Of a stretch of DNA of 12,572 nucleotides, positions 2 through 10,009 are shown one piece after another. A program made the translations under genes and the position numbers. The DNA is from Lachnospiraceae bacterium UBA3772 (GTDB taxonomy: Bacteria > Bacillota > Clostridia > Lachnospirales > Lachnospiraceae). The stretch spans positions 1 through 12,572 of the forward strand of contig DFFQ01000109.1 in NCBI GenBank assembly GCA_002371025.1, in the 5' to 3' direction. Positions within the stretch are counted from its first letter, which is position 1, and the number at the start of each line of letters is the position of its first letter. Under the pieces are notes generated by a model. That model did no database searches, had not been told where the DNA came from, and worked only from the letters and a program-made list of their open reading frames with translations.

Positions 2-766
2 ATTATTGCAATAGCCAACCAGAAAGGTGGCGTTGGAAAAACAACTACATCGATAAACCTTGCTGCTTGTTTGGCAGAAAAGGGTATGAAAGTTCTTGCC
101 ATAGATATGGATCCACAGGGAAATATGACAAGTGGATTAGGAATAGATAAGAACAATCTGGAATATTCTATCTATGATACTATGTGTGGAAATTGTAATC
201 TTGGAGAAAGTATGATCATTGATGTATATAAGAATTTAAATCTTATTCCATCAAGTAGAGAACTGGCCGGAGCAGAAGTTGATTTTCTGGATGTAGAAGG
301 AAAACAATATATATTAAAAAATCTCGTTAAGAATTTAAGAAAAAAATTCGACTTTATAATTATTGATTGTCCACCTGCTTTAGGAATATTAACAATTAAT
401 GCAATGACAGCAGCAGATACTGTTATAGTACCAATACAATGTGAATTCTATGCATTAGACGGATTAACTCAGTTAATGTATACTATTGAACTTATAAAGA
501 AACAGCTAAATAAAACTCTTGAAGTTGAAGGTGTTGTATTCACAATGTATGATTCAAGGACAAATCTATCAGAACAGGTAGTACAGAATGTAAAAGAAAA
601 TCTTGATTCATTAATTTATAACACAGTAGTTCCAAGAAATGTTAGACTTGCTGAAGCACCAAGTTTTGGCCAGCCAATAAATATATATGATTCAAGAAGT
701 GCAGGAGCTTATGCTTATAGAGAACTTGCAGAAGAAGTTATAAATAATAAACTGTTTTTAAAATAG
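2..766 (+). CDS. parA: Chromosome partitioning ATPase ParA/Soj, 5'-truncated by the window edge
   Basis: ParA is a deviant Walker-type ATPase that binds DNA non-specifically as an ATP dimer. It works with ParB in origin segregation, and in B. subtilis it also controls DnaA. The frame is open from base 2, so only a few N-terminal residues are missing: 254 residues are visible and the family is usually about 255 long. The deviant Walker A motif KGGVGKTT is at 23-46, DMDPQGN follows, and the Walker B region FIIIDCPPALG is in the middle. A TTG at 71 is not the start, because using it would remove the P-loop. The C-terminal part (VPRNVRLAEAPSFGQPI) is typical of Soj. The gene stops with TAG at 764-766. 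A 259-bp gap separates it from parB, although the two are usually adjacent or overlapping. It is transcribed towards oriC. Confidence 0.96.
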   Translation: MIAIANQKGGVGKTTTSINLAACLAEKGMKVLAIDMDPQGNMTSGLGIDKNNLEYSIYDTMCGNCNLGESMIIDVYKNLNLIPSSRELAGAEVDFLDVEGKQYILKNLVKNLRKKFDFIIIDCPPALGILTINAMTAADTVIVPIQCEFYALDGLTQLMYTIELIKKQLNKTLEVEGVVFTMYDSRTNLSEQVVQNVKENLDSLIYNTVVPRNVRLAEAPSFGQPINIYDSRSAGAYAYRELAEEVINNKLFLK

Positions 767-804
767 TAAGTAATAGTCACTAAATGTTAGTAACTAAGCA
801 AAAA

Positions 805-957
805 AGTTGATAACTTTTATACTTACCAACAAAATCTACATATAAATAGATAGTTATAAACATATTACAGGTGGATTTTAGTGGATTTTGTTGATTACTT
901 AATAGTATTATCAACATAATTAACAGAAAATTGTTGATAACACCACACTTATCAACA
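805..957. promoter_or_regulatory. DnaA-box cluster in the parA-parB gap
   Basis: The 259-bp gap between parA and parB has no credible gene but holds six DnaA-box-like 9-mers. Three are exact TTATCAACA: 908-916 (+), 932-940 (-) and 949-957 (+). One is TTATAAACA at 854-862 (+), the same variant that occurs twice in the dnaA upstream array. Two have one mismatch to TTATCAACA: 805-813 (-) and 889-897 (-). The exact motif is the one that also occurs in both parts of oriC in this window. DnaA box clusters away from oriC are known in B. subtilis as regulatory or DnaA-titrating sites. That this one binds DnaA is inferred from motif density and identity. Confidence 0.7.
871..890. repeat. Tandem 10-bp direct repeat
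   Basis: GTGGATTTTA is followed directly by GTGGATTTTG, two 10-bp units differing only in the last base. They lie inside the parA-parB DnaA-box cluster. GTGGAT resembles the core of an inverted DnaA box (TGTGGATAA), but each unit has several mismatches. They may be decayed boxes or a separate protein-binding repeat. Confidence 0.6.
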
Positions 958-960
958 ATT
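929..960. repeat. Perfect 12-bp inverted repeat built from two DnaA boxes
   Basis: AATTGTTGATAA (929-940) and TTATCAACAATT (949-960) are exact reverse complements separated by the 8-base spacer CACCACAC. Each arm contains one complete TTATCAACA box, so two boxes face each other. No run of T follows, so a Rho-independent terminator is unlikely. It could be a paired DnaA-binding site, a cruciform, or a hairpin in the parB leader. Confidence 0.85.
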
Positions 961-976
961 ATGTAAATCAACCGAC

Positions 977-982
977 TATAAT
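977..982 (+). promoter_or_regulatory. Possible -10 element for parB
   Basis: A consensus TATAAT lies 44 bases before the parB start. No recognisable -35 hexamer sits 16-18 bases upstream, and that position is next to the DnaA box at 949-957. An alternative is TTGATT at 891-896 with CATAAT at 915-920 (18-base spacer), which also overlaps DnaA boxes. Either would give parB a promoter independent of parA and close to DnaA sites. Weakly supported. Confidence 0.3.
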
Positions 983-1025
983 TTTAAAAATAGTTTACAT
1001 AAAAGAATTAAGAAGAAGAGGAAAG

Positions 1026-1970
1026 ATGATGGCTACAAAAAGAGGACTTGGTAGAGGAATTAGTGAACTGATACCGACAGGCGAATCCAAGACAAAAAAC
1101 ACTTCTAAGAAAACAACAGATAAAGAAGTTAAAGTAGTTGAGAAGGTTGTTGAAAAAGTAATTGAAAAACCAACAGAACAGAAATTAAAAATTACTGATA
1201 TAGAACCAAATAAAGATCAGCCAAGAAAAAATTTTGATGAAGACGCTTTAAATGAGCTTTCAGATTCAATTAAAAAATATGGCGTTATAGAACCAGTAGT
1301 AGTAGTAAAGAAAAATAAACATTATGAGATTATTGCCGGTGAAAGAAGATGGAGAGCAGCAAGACTTGCAGGCCTTAAAGAAATACCAGTAATTATAAGA
1401 GATTATAATCAGCAACAGCAGGTTGAAATAGCCCTGATAGAAAATCTTCAGAGAGAAAACTTAAATCCAATCGAAGAAGCTCATGCATATCAGAGGCTTA
1501 TAGATGAATTTGATCTTAAACAGGATGAAGTTGCAGAAAAAGTATCAAAAGGAAGAACTACAATTACTAATTCTCTTCGACTTCTTAAACTTTGTGAGAA
1601 AGTACAACAAATGCTTGTTAATGAAATGATCTCCACAGGTCATGCAAGATCACTTATAGCAATAGAAGATCCTGATGTACAGTATGAAACAGCCATAACT
1701 GTTTTTGATAGAAAAATGTCTGTAAGAGATACAGAAAAATTAGTAAAGAGTGTACTTAAGATTTTAAGTGGTGAAAAAAGTGAAGAAAAAAAACCTGAAG
1801 TAAAGGATCTTACACCTATCTATAAAGATATTGAAGAAAAATTAAAAAATGTACTTGGTACAAAAGCTGTTATAAAAACAAAAGATAATAAAAAAGGAAA
1901 GATTGAAATTGATTATTATTCACAGGACGATCTTGAAAGAATACTTGATTTAATTTACGGGCAAAGATAA
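1026..1970 (+). CDS. parB: Chromosome partitioning protein ParB/Spo0J
   Basis: ParB is a CTP-dependent DNA clamp that loads at parS, spreads along DNA, recruits SMC and stimulates ParA. The N-terminus (TKRGLGRGISELIP, residues 4-17) is the basic ParA-stimulating peptide. A Lys/Glu/Val-rich linker (about 20-52) containing VEKVVEKVIEK follows. The ParB/Srx domain starts near 53 and carries the CTP-binding motif GERRWR (105-110) and ENLQREN (139-145). A helix-turn-helix lies at about 164-189, and the C-terminal dimerisation domain reaches 314. Two ATGs occur in tandem at 1026 and 1029. The AGGA at 1019-1022 is better spaced for the second, so the protein may be 313 residues. The next gene starts 9 bases after the stop. 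No consensus parS was seen inside this gene, although B. subtilis carries one in its spo0J. Confidence 0.96.
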   Translation: MMATKRGLGRGISELIPTGESKTKNTSKKTTDKEVKVVEKVVEKVIEKPTEQKLKITDIEPNKDQPRKNFDEDALNELSDSIKKYGVIEPVVVVKKNKHYEIIAGERRWRAARLAGLKEIPVIIRDYNQQQQVEIALIENLQRENLNPIEEAHAYQRLIDEFDLKQDEVAEKVSKGRTTITNSLRLLKLCEKVQQMLVNEMISTGHARSLIAIEDPDVQYETAITVFDRKMSVRDTEKLVKSVLKILSGEKSEEKKPEVKDLTPIYKDIEEKLKNVLGTKAVIKTKDNKKGKIEIDYYSQDDLERILDLIYGQR

Positions 1971-4875: not shown

Positions 4876-4949
4876 GTTTCTGTAGCTCAGCAGGATAGAG
4901 CGTCCGCCTCCTAAGCGGAAGGTCGTGCGTTCGAATCGCATCAGGAACA
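4876..4949 (+). tRNA. tRNA-Arg, anticodon CCT
   Basis: A complete cloverleaf can be drawn. The acceptor GTTTCTG (4876-4882) pairs with CAGGAAC (4942-4948), with one G-T pair. The D stem is GCTC/GAGC (4885-4888, 4898-4901). The anticodon stem TCCGC/GCGGA encloses loop CTCCTAA with CCT at 4910-4912. The variable loop is AGGTC, and the T stem GTGCG/CGCAT encloses TTCGAAT. The D-loop AGCAGGATA has an A just after its GG, matching the A20 arginine identity element. The discriminator is A4949, and CCA is not encoded. It reads the AGG codon. It is a single tRNA with its own promoter, at the boundary between the + block and the jag operon. Confidence 0.96.
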
Positions 4950-7921: not shown

Positions 7922-7976
7922 AGTAGTTTTAACTTCCTTTCTTCTTATTTAATTATCCATAAAGACAATCTAGAAT

Positions 7977-8005
7977 ATTTTATTGAAAAAACAAGTAAAA
8001 GTCAA
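7977..8005 (-). promoter_or_regulatory. Promoter of the rpmH operon
   Basis: On the minus strand, TTGACT (8005-8000), a 17-base spacer and TAAAAT (7982-7977). The predicted start near 7970 leaves a leader of about 50 bases before rpmH. It points away from the DnaA-box array at 8075-8128. Confidence 0.75.
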
Positions 8006-8074
8006 GCAAATAAGCATATTTCAATGTTACTAAAATTAACAGAAAATTTTTTTATTTTTCTAATTTACATAAAG

Positions 8075-8128
8075 TTATCAACAATTTGTCGATAAGCTGT
8101 TGATAACTGTTTATAACTCTGTTTATAA
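8075..8128. other. oriC part 1: DnaA-box array upstream of dnaA
   Basis: Five boxes lie in the 405-bp rpmH-dnaA gap: TTATCAACA at 8075-8083 (+), then on the minus strand TTATCGACA (8087-8095), TTATCAACA (8098-8106), TTATAAACA (8108-8116) and TTATAAACA (8120-8128). Start-to-start spacing is 10-12 bases, so the boxes lie on nearly the same face of the helix. The location matches the incA/incB part of the B. subtilis origin and would also allow DnaA to control its own gene. The bases from 8129 to 8242 are almost pure A/T, with no further exact box and no gene. TTTGTCGATAA at 8086-8095 also resembles a Spo0A box (TGTCGAA, one mismatch). Confidence 0.87.
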
Positions 8129-8242
8129 TTTTTTCATAAATATAATTTTTGGCGTATTTAAAGCGTTTTTAAGGTTTATAAATTATTAACAATGATAAAA
8201 ATTGAATTTACATAATAAAAATGGCTTAAAAAGGCATTTAAC

Positions 8243-8271
8243 TTGTTATCCGACATATTTTGTAGTATACT
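8243..8271 (+). promoter_or_regulatory. Promoter of dnaA
   Basis: TTGTTA (8243-8248), a 17-base spacer and TATACT (8266-8271). Transcription would begin near 8278, about 50 bases before dnaA. It lies about 115 bases downstream of the DnaA-box array. Confidence 0.72.
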
Positions 8272-8326
8272 TTTAACGTATGTTTTTATGCACTTTTTTA
8301 GAAAATTATAAAGGAACCTTGGTAAA

Positions 8327-9709: not shown

Positions 9710-9722
9710 ACAAAATTATCAC

Positions 9723-9765
9723 TTATCAACATTATTTTGTGGATAAGCTGTTATTTTGTGGTTAA
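9723..9765. other. oriC part 2: DnaA boxes just after dnaA
   Basis: The 300-bp dnaA-dnaN gap starts with TTATCAACA at 9723-9731 (+), the classical TTATCCACA at 9738-9746 (-) and TTAACCACA at 9757-9765 (-, one mismatch). This matches the incC position in B. subtilis. The bases from 9766 to about 9916 are AT-rich with no exact box and no gene. Confidence 0.85.
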
Positions 9766-9916
9766 TTTACTTTTTATAACTTGTTAATTGTTATTTGAGA
9801 ATTTTTTCTGAAATTTTCATGAATAATTTTTAAACAAACAATAAAGAGTAATTTTGATTCATTTCAACATGGTTAAGCAACATAAAAAAACCTTGTAGAA
9901 TATAGCTTTAAAGCAC

Positions 9917-9977
9917 ATATAAACATATCAACAGTGCCTATTACTATTACTACGAAATATATATATATAATTTATTA
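9917..9977 (+). other. oriC basal unwinding element (DnaA box, DnaA-trios, AT-rich DUE)
   Basis: Reading left to right there is a degenerate box ATATAAACA (9917-9925), the box ATATCAACA (9925-9933, one mismatch to TTATCAACA), a GC-rich GTGCC (9934-9938) and five consecutive triplets CTA-TTA-CTA-TTA-CTA (9938-9952). An AT-only stretch follows from 9955 to 9977. On the complementary strand the triplets read 3'-GAT-AAT-GAT-AAT-GAT-5', which fits the DnaA-trio consensus 3'-(G/A)AT-5'. The order and polarity match the B. subtilis unwinding site as I recall it. DnaA should extend from the box rightward onto the trios and melt the AT stretch. Confidence 0.88.
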
Positions 9978-10009
9978 ACGGATTCGTCACACGCAAAGGA
10001 GAAATTACA

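Follow-up and report, generated by a model that had tools for sequence, protein, structure and literature searches.

A cluster of DnaA boxes in the parA-parB gap of a Lachnospiraceae genome and its relatives

RESULTS

Genes and features of the parA-parB region

The stretch of DNA analyzed here (the window) is a 12,572-bp contig from a 2.66-Mb assembly of 244 contigs. It carries, in order, parA(partial)-parB-DUF4446-serS-...-jag-yidC-yidD-rnpA-rpmH, followed by dnaA-dnaN-S4-recF-gyrB(partial). ParA, ParB, DnaA, and DUF4446 were assigned by Pfam, and the remaining genes were named from their translations and gene order. Between parA and parB lies a gap with a GC content of 0.24 that contains a cluster of DnaA boxes (Table 1). 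The initial annotation had described this gap as unusually wide, and the comparison with distant relatives agreed, since it spans 259 bp in the window versus −10 to 40 bp in 16 loci whose ParA is 59 to 64% identical. Within the genus, gap lengths range from 9 to 512 bp (36 genomes); some of these depend on the start-codon rule (e.g., 115 versus 232 bp in G060), and a single rule was used throughout for the 36-genome counts.

At the Rfam gathering threshold, the sole match in the window was a tRNA (4876 to 4949), and no RNA element matched in the parA-parB gap. A promoter scan of positions 600 to 1200 returned five weak sigma-70-type matches, none of them convincing, against 2.8 (standard deviation, 1.5) in shuffled sequences. 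The window's assembly also contains a second ParB, with 54% identity, accompanied by two perfect parS sites on a separate contig (G000:C4:3536-5537) that may be foreign DNA; the assembly's listed contamination is 4%.

Table 1. Features of the window and of related loci (plain positions refer to the window; G000 is the window's genome)
Feature	Position	Strand	Remarks
parA (soj)	2..766	+	ORF; 5' end truncated by contig start; Pfam AAA_31, 240 bits
parA-parB gap with DnaA-box cluster	767..1025		259 bp
Weak DnaA box TTATCAACT	805..813	-	Same letters in both nearest genomes
Weak DnaA box TTACCAACA	823..831	+	Same letters in both nearest genomes
DnaA box TTATAAACA	854..862	+	Reads TTATTAACA in G013
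Weak DnaA box TAATCAACA	889..897	-	Same letters in both nearest genomes
DnaA box TTATCAACA	908..916	+	Exact
DnaA box TTATCAACA	932..940	-	Exact
DnaA box TTATCAACA	949..957	+	Exact
dif-right-arm-like half-site TTATGTAAAT	959..968	+	Directly after last box
dif-right-arm-like half-site TTATGTAAAC	993..1002	-	23 bp before parB
parB (spo0J)	1026..1970	+	ORF; Pfam ParB_N, HTH_ParB, ParB_C
oriC1 (rpmH-dnaA gap)	7922..8326		Boxes at 8075, 8087, 8098, 8108, 8120
oriC1 half-sites TTATGTAAAT	8063-8072 and 8206-8215	-	
dnaA	8327..9709	+	Pfam Bac_DnaA, Bac_DnaA_C
oriC2 (dnaA-dnaN gap)	9710..10009		Boxes at 9723(+), 9738(-)
DnaA-trio CTATTACTATTACTA	9938-9952		In oriC2; followed by AT-rich stretch
DnaA-box cluster between murC (Mur ligase) and dnaD-dnaI	L063:2540-2752 (G000:C175:4539-4751)		
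Three exact TTATCAACA plus TTATGAACA	L062:2465-2559 (G000:C62:7164-7258)		~95 bp; upstream of ribosome-hibernation-type gene
parS-like arrays upstream of parA	L031-L040, L045, L046, L059, L060		About -920 to -2920 from parB
dif-like dyad GTTACCATAA-N5-TTATGTAAAC	L066:1057-1081 (G004:C1:184556-184580)		Directly behind Xer-type gene, near presumed terminus

A cluster of seven DnaA boxes in the gap

The gap contains seven box-like 9-mers within 153 bp, namely, three exact copies of TTATCAACA and four copies with one mismatch. The initial annotation had placed the boxes within about 150 bases, which is correct, and had rightly counted the three exact copies and TTATAAACA, but the further one-mismatch copies number three rather than two. 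Among 5,000 dinucleotide shuffles of the gap, none reached three exact copies (maximum, 1), and none of 1,500 reached seven copies at ≤1 mismatch (mean, 0.25). Across the whole window, there are 27 matches at ≤1 mismatch versus a mean of 8.7 in 200 shuffles. The 9-mer is shared with the oriC arrays, as had been claimed, exact copies of TTATCAACA lying at 8075, 8098, and 9723. Extra-oriC clusters are defined, in the wording quoted in PMC7561715, by at least three boxes at an average distance of <100 bp; with seven elements in 153 bp, three of them exact, the parA-parB set is by that definition a cluster, and it stands outside the two arrays that flank dnaA, ~7.1 kb from the first box of one and 8.8 kb from that of the other.

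The window's genome contains 132 exact TTATCAACA 9-mers (reversed-pattern control, 31). Frequent clustering of this word elsewhere had been named at the outset as a point that would speak against a special role; among 100 of the 132 places, a set that does not include the window's six exact copies, clusters were not common. At least two further tight groups are present, one on contig C62 (3 copies in 95 bp) and one on C175 (3 in 126 bp, 4 in 213 bp).

The boxes are conserved as a footprint in the two nearest genomes

We aligned the gap with those of the two nearest genomes, G045 and G013 (ParA, 98%; ParB, 96%; gaps of 275 and 255 bp). All seven boxes keep their order and orientation in the three genomes, and the intervening sequence drifts. 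Start-to-start spacings (window/G045/G013) are 18, 31/31/30, 35, 19, and 24 bp, and the last is 17 bp in the window versus 27 bp in both relatives. Counting ungapped gap columns with the ribosome-binding-site end excluded, we found that the boxes, taken together with the two half-sites described below, are invariant in 83 of their 84 columns, versus 72 of 126 in the remaining gap. When this mask was shifted circularly, 1 of 210 shifts, the unshifted mask included, reached the observed value. The three weak boxes are letter-identical in all three genomes, and because they are nonconsensus, the constraint acts on these exact words. The seven-box layout was found only in the window and these two genomes; elsewhere in the genus, the layout differs.

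DnaA boxes recur in two clades of the genus

ParB was sought in 61 genomes of the same genus, 48 of which gave some match, plasmid-type paralogues included. Leaving out genomes with no hit or distant hits only, loci cut by contig ends, and loci that were not fetched, the survey set comprised 36 genomes with parA and parB in the fetched locus (the near-identical G031 and G039 were counted separately). In the region that begins 60 bp ahead of the parA stop codon and extends to parB, there were 35 strict boxes (TTATC[A/C]ACA) in 6,593 bp, or 5.31 per kb, and none with the reversed control. A plus-strand box before the parA stop codon is coding sequence, and we therefore recounted the noncoding gap without parA, which gave 22 strict boxes, in 15 genomes, in 4,397 bp (5.0 per kb; reversed control, 0). 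For comparison, the density was 5.39 per kb in the rpmH-dnaA gap (15 genomes) and 3.88 per kb in the dnaA-dnaN gap (16 genomes). Upstream of parA, 15 strict boxes occurred in 32.8 kb (0.46 per kb; control, 1, or 0.03 per kb), in 8 of 36 genomes, and elsewhere in the loci the density was 0.071 per kb versus 0.026 for the control (35 versus 13 boxes).

A strict box was present in the surveyed region of 16 genomes and absent from that of the other 20. On a tree of ParA plus ParB, the 16 were confined to two supported groups, making up 11 of the 12 members of one and all 5 members of the other, and box presence required three changes versus a mean of 12 after shuffling; one gain with two losses and two gains with one loss are both compatible with the tree. 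G038, which lies inside the main clade, had no strict box in the surveyed region. The picture for conservation among relatives, raised in the initial annotation, is mixed: the layout of the two nearest genomes and the boxes of the two clades speak for it, and the 20 boxless genomes, G038 included, speak against it and imply that the genus can do without the cluster.

Chance would be another explanation of the boxes, in view of the low GC content of this gap and the abundance of the 9-mer in the genome. Set against this idea are the shuffles, the footprint in three genomes, the lack of any reversed-pattern hit in the gaps of 36 genomes, and the occurrence of boxes in relatives whose loci have a GC content of up to 0.49, so that we regard a chance origin as negligible.

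The 3' end of parA itself carries a box in many relatives. Thirteen of the 16 box-bearing genomes have a plus-strand box whose start is 25 or 28 bp ahead of the final base of the parA stop codon, and 10 of the 13 also have a minus-strand box that starts 33 to 36 bp beyond that point, directly past the stop codon. The plus-strand box is read GTT-ATC-[A/C]AC-A. The residue preceding Asn-Lys at the ParA C terminus is Asn or His in 17 genomes, 13 of which spell TTATC[A/C]ACA, the identity of the residue corresponding to the A/C choice in the DnaA box; it is Lys or Arg in 19 genomes, none of which has a box there. This codon pattern follows the clades, and hence the 17/19 split does not represent 36 independent cases. 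The Asn is retained, with other codons, in the window, in its two nearest relatives, and in G038; these four may have lost the parA-end box, and the larger array of the window's group may have replaced it.

The gap lacks a DnaA-trio

A clostridial oriC2 with a DnaA-trio has been described for C. difficile (in the portion of PMC7561715 concerned with that origin), and the dnaA-dnaN gap of the window likewise has a trio (Table 1). On neither strand of the parA-parB gap did [CT]TA occur three or more times in a row. One option in the initial annotation, that this gap is an extra origin module, here understood as having an unwinding site of its own, could draw on its AT richness and on the boxes and half-site motif that it has in common with oriC1. 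The lack of a trio in a window that has one between dnaA and dnaN makes a second origin unlikely; this argument is tempered by the rpmH-dnaA gap, which is part of the bipartite origin and has no trio either. Overall, we consider an extra origin very improbable and have set that option aside.

Further box clusters precede dnaD-dnaI, and parS-like arrays precede parA

Genes preceded by box clusters are dnaA, dnaD-dnaI, and, in two clades of a single genus, parB. The cluster following murC precedes a gene for a DnaD-like protein with a DnaB_2 domain and then a DnaC/DnaI-type AAA+ gene; in the window's genome, some of this upstream block belongs to the murC coding sequence. Of 20 same-genus genomes, 19 had the DnaD-like gene, and all 19 loci (L119 to L137) had boxes within 450 bp upstream (control, 0), the first two being 62 to 63 bp apart in 16 of them. 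In a sample of the family, 78 of 80 genomes had a DnaD-like match, and we examined the best 29 other-genus loci (L139 to L167) with the wider pattern TTATN[A/C]ACA. At least two boxes lay within 450 bp upstream of dnaD in 26 of these best 29, with totals of 105 boxes versus 3 control hits in 13.3 kb upstream and 10 versus 7 in 73 kb downstream. This recurrence raises the possibility that DnaA controls several genes of initiation and segregation in the family. Together with conservation of the gap boxes, the parallel dnaD-dnaI cluster supports the original proposal that a site for regulation by DnaA, or for its titration, lies beside parB.

The window, which begins inside parA, contains no canonical parS at ≤3 mismatches. 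In 14 of 15 same-genus loci, however, 3 to 10 parS-like 16-mers (≤2 mismatches) lie ~0.9 to 2.9 kb upstream of parB, and the 15th locus ends 1 kb upstream of parB; most copies are TGTTTCATGTGAAACA in L038, L040, and L060. DnaA might act directly at the centromere, the boxes allowing it to touch parABS and to license or time origin segregation by a route other than parB transcription. These arrays, the DnaA boxes near the array in several loci, and the precedent of Caulobacter, where DnaA binds parS and enables segregation (Mera 2014, as summarized in PMC6399470), are consistent with the idea. It fits less well with the two nearest genomes, which have no strict box upstream of parA, and with the dnaD clusters, which precede genes that have no noted parS (the scan there being for DnaA boxes). 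Direct action at the centromere is possible, in our view, though doubtful.

Xer-like half-sites accompany the boxes

The motif TTATGTWAAY, which we take to be the XerD arm of dif, occurred 32 times in the surveyed parA-parB region of the 36 genomes (control, 0) and 15 times in the rpmH-dnaA gap (control, 0) but not at all in the dnaA-dnaN gap; in the rest of the loci there were 58 copies versus 21 controls (0.118 per kb). It was present in all 16 box-bearing regions and occurred alone in four more. In 7 of 15 rpmH-dnaA regions, it lies 107 to 108 bp from a minus-strand box, as does the window's copy at 8206 to 8215. One-mismatch matches to TTATGTAAA are at the chance level in the window (12 versus 12.6), and the four exact copies fall only in the parA-parB and rpmH-dnaA gaps. 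We also considered TTATGTAAAY as a genome-wide series of sites and found no support for it, the hits versus reversed controls being 50/59 in G000, 68/42 in G006, and 91/84 in G004, with no overrepresentation in two of the three genomes.

The right arm of a dif-like dyad located close to an Xer-type recombinase gene reads TTATGTWAAC. The dyad TTWMCATAA-N5-TTATGKWAA (≤1 mismatch) was present in 38 of 61 genomes, with 55 dyads versus 11 for the reversed pattern, and it lay ≤20 kb from an Xer-type recombinase gene in 15 of the 20 genomes searched, in five of them directly behind the gene (L080, L081, L082, and L092, besides the example in Table 1). Two genomes consist of single contigs; if these are taken as circular, the distance between the Xer-type gene and the position opposite parB is ~27 kb in G006 and 76 kb in G004. 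The window's own assembly has the dyads and the Xer-type gene on different contigs, and the dif status of the dyad is putative. A similar dyad occurs in a seemingly shared coding context in G053, G010, G060, and G025 (L074 to L077). A Firmicutes-type dif consensus, at ≤2 mismatches, had matches in 4 of 18 genomes, all of them unconvincing. A single-recombinase (XerS/difSL-like) system was weakened as a candidate, XerD scoring above the curated cutoff in all six genomes tested and the terminus gene scoring 213.7, under the XerS cutoff of 267.

Four genomes, G008, G024, G031, and G039 (L022, L020, L023, and L024), carry a nearly complete dif-like dyad inside the parA-parB gap, with a 6-bp center versus 5 bp in the terminus dyad; no terminus-type dyad was found in these four. 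The 6-bp center might permit binding without recombination. The boxes and half-sites upstream of dnaA and parB could be composite elements at two origin-side control points of the genus, where the terminus recombinase or XerD would bind and relay the status of the terminus, in terms of dimer resolution and SMC unloading, to dnaA and parB. Such a control loop from terminus to origin, also reading DnaA, would follow if this were true, but we hold the idea only tentatively and think it improbable.

DISCUSSION

The features directly established for the parA-parB gap are its boxes, their constraint, density, and recurrence in two clades, and the absence of a DnaA-trio. Judged from these sequence features, DnaA very probably occupies the gap, and the best reading is that the boxes form an extra-oriC DnaA-binding element that would tune parB, or the nearby centromere, to DnaA. 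In the form that acts on parB, DnaA would assemble over 805 to 957, directly upstream of parB, and its occupancy would change transcription entering or starting at the gene, through a presumed DnaA-sensitive promoter or read-through step and in a direction that is likewise presumed. The supply of ParB would then track DnaA activity, with consequences for the state of ParA/Soj and for SMC loading. We prefer control of parB transcription because the clusters observed sit upstream of genes and because DnaA regulates operons in B. subtilis, where it is described as a transcription factor at several operons, with apparent repression of trmE-noc (in the account of DnaA binding in PMC4447404). We nevertheless judge this proposal to be evenly poised between right and wrong. 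The promoter scan gave it no convincing promoter, the cluster is dispensable in the genus and keeps its seven-box layout in 3 genomes only, the boxes upstream of parA are left unexplained, and the rest of the loci, too, has more boxes than its control.

The same cluster might instead be a DnaA reservoir that titrates the protein near oriC and delays initiation irrespective of the neighboring genes, a role that has been proposed for the DnaA-box clusters of B. subtilis. At ~7 kb from oriC, it would be duplicated early; box presence persists while the layout differs between clades; and a B. subtilis strain lacking six clusters initiates early, according to the portion of PMC5295017 that treats such a strain. 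Titration, however, requires neither near-fixed spacing and conserved weak boxes nor a place exactly between parA and parB, which was found in two clades, and we consider a reservoir unlikely.

Returning to the control of parB, the coupling of initiation and segregation in bacteria is an open question. In B. subtilis, the link that is well described has ParA/Soj acting on DnaA (as outlined in PMC5295017), and a conserved DnaA site at parB would form the return arm. In the literature covered, which consisted of titles and abstract openings and included few subscription papers, we found no description of a DnaA-box element between parA and parB.

Several known systems resemble the element in part. 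It shares with the bipartite oriC of Firmicutes (C. difficile, B. subtilis) the box sequence, the use of both orientations, and an AT-rich gap, and differs in having no DnaA-trio. With the Caulobacter parS centromere, as presented in PMC6399470, it shares initiator boxes within an origin-near parABS locus, although here the boxes lie between parA and parB, and parS-like sites are upstream of parA in relatives, with none in the window. The half-sites match the right arm of the dif-like dyad and so resemble the dif XerD half-site and the XerD sites that unload SMC at the terminus (as cited in PMC10945525); those of the window, in contrast, are putative binding sites at the origin, beside DnaA boxes.

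In its presumed function, the element resembles the extra-oriC clusters of B. subtilis, which have several boxes outside oriC, mostly in promoter regions, and which lie upstream of trmE, ywlC, ywcI/vpr, sda, and yydA and downstream of gcp. The trmE cluster is oriC proximal and heads the trmE-noc operon (PMC4447404), Noc being a ParB homologue. Among the ten strongest DnaA regions given for B. subtilis in PMC4447404, none is situated in a parA-parB interval or ahead of dnaD, whereas the cluster in the window is inside the par operon and is accompanied by Xer-like half-sites. The gap element would work like a known extra-oriC DnaA-box cluster; its place in the par operon, the parA codon pattern, and the Xer-like half-sites set it apart as a variant of such clusters and not simply a further example.
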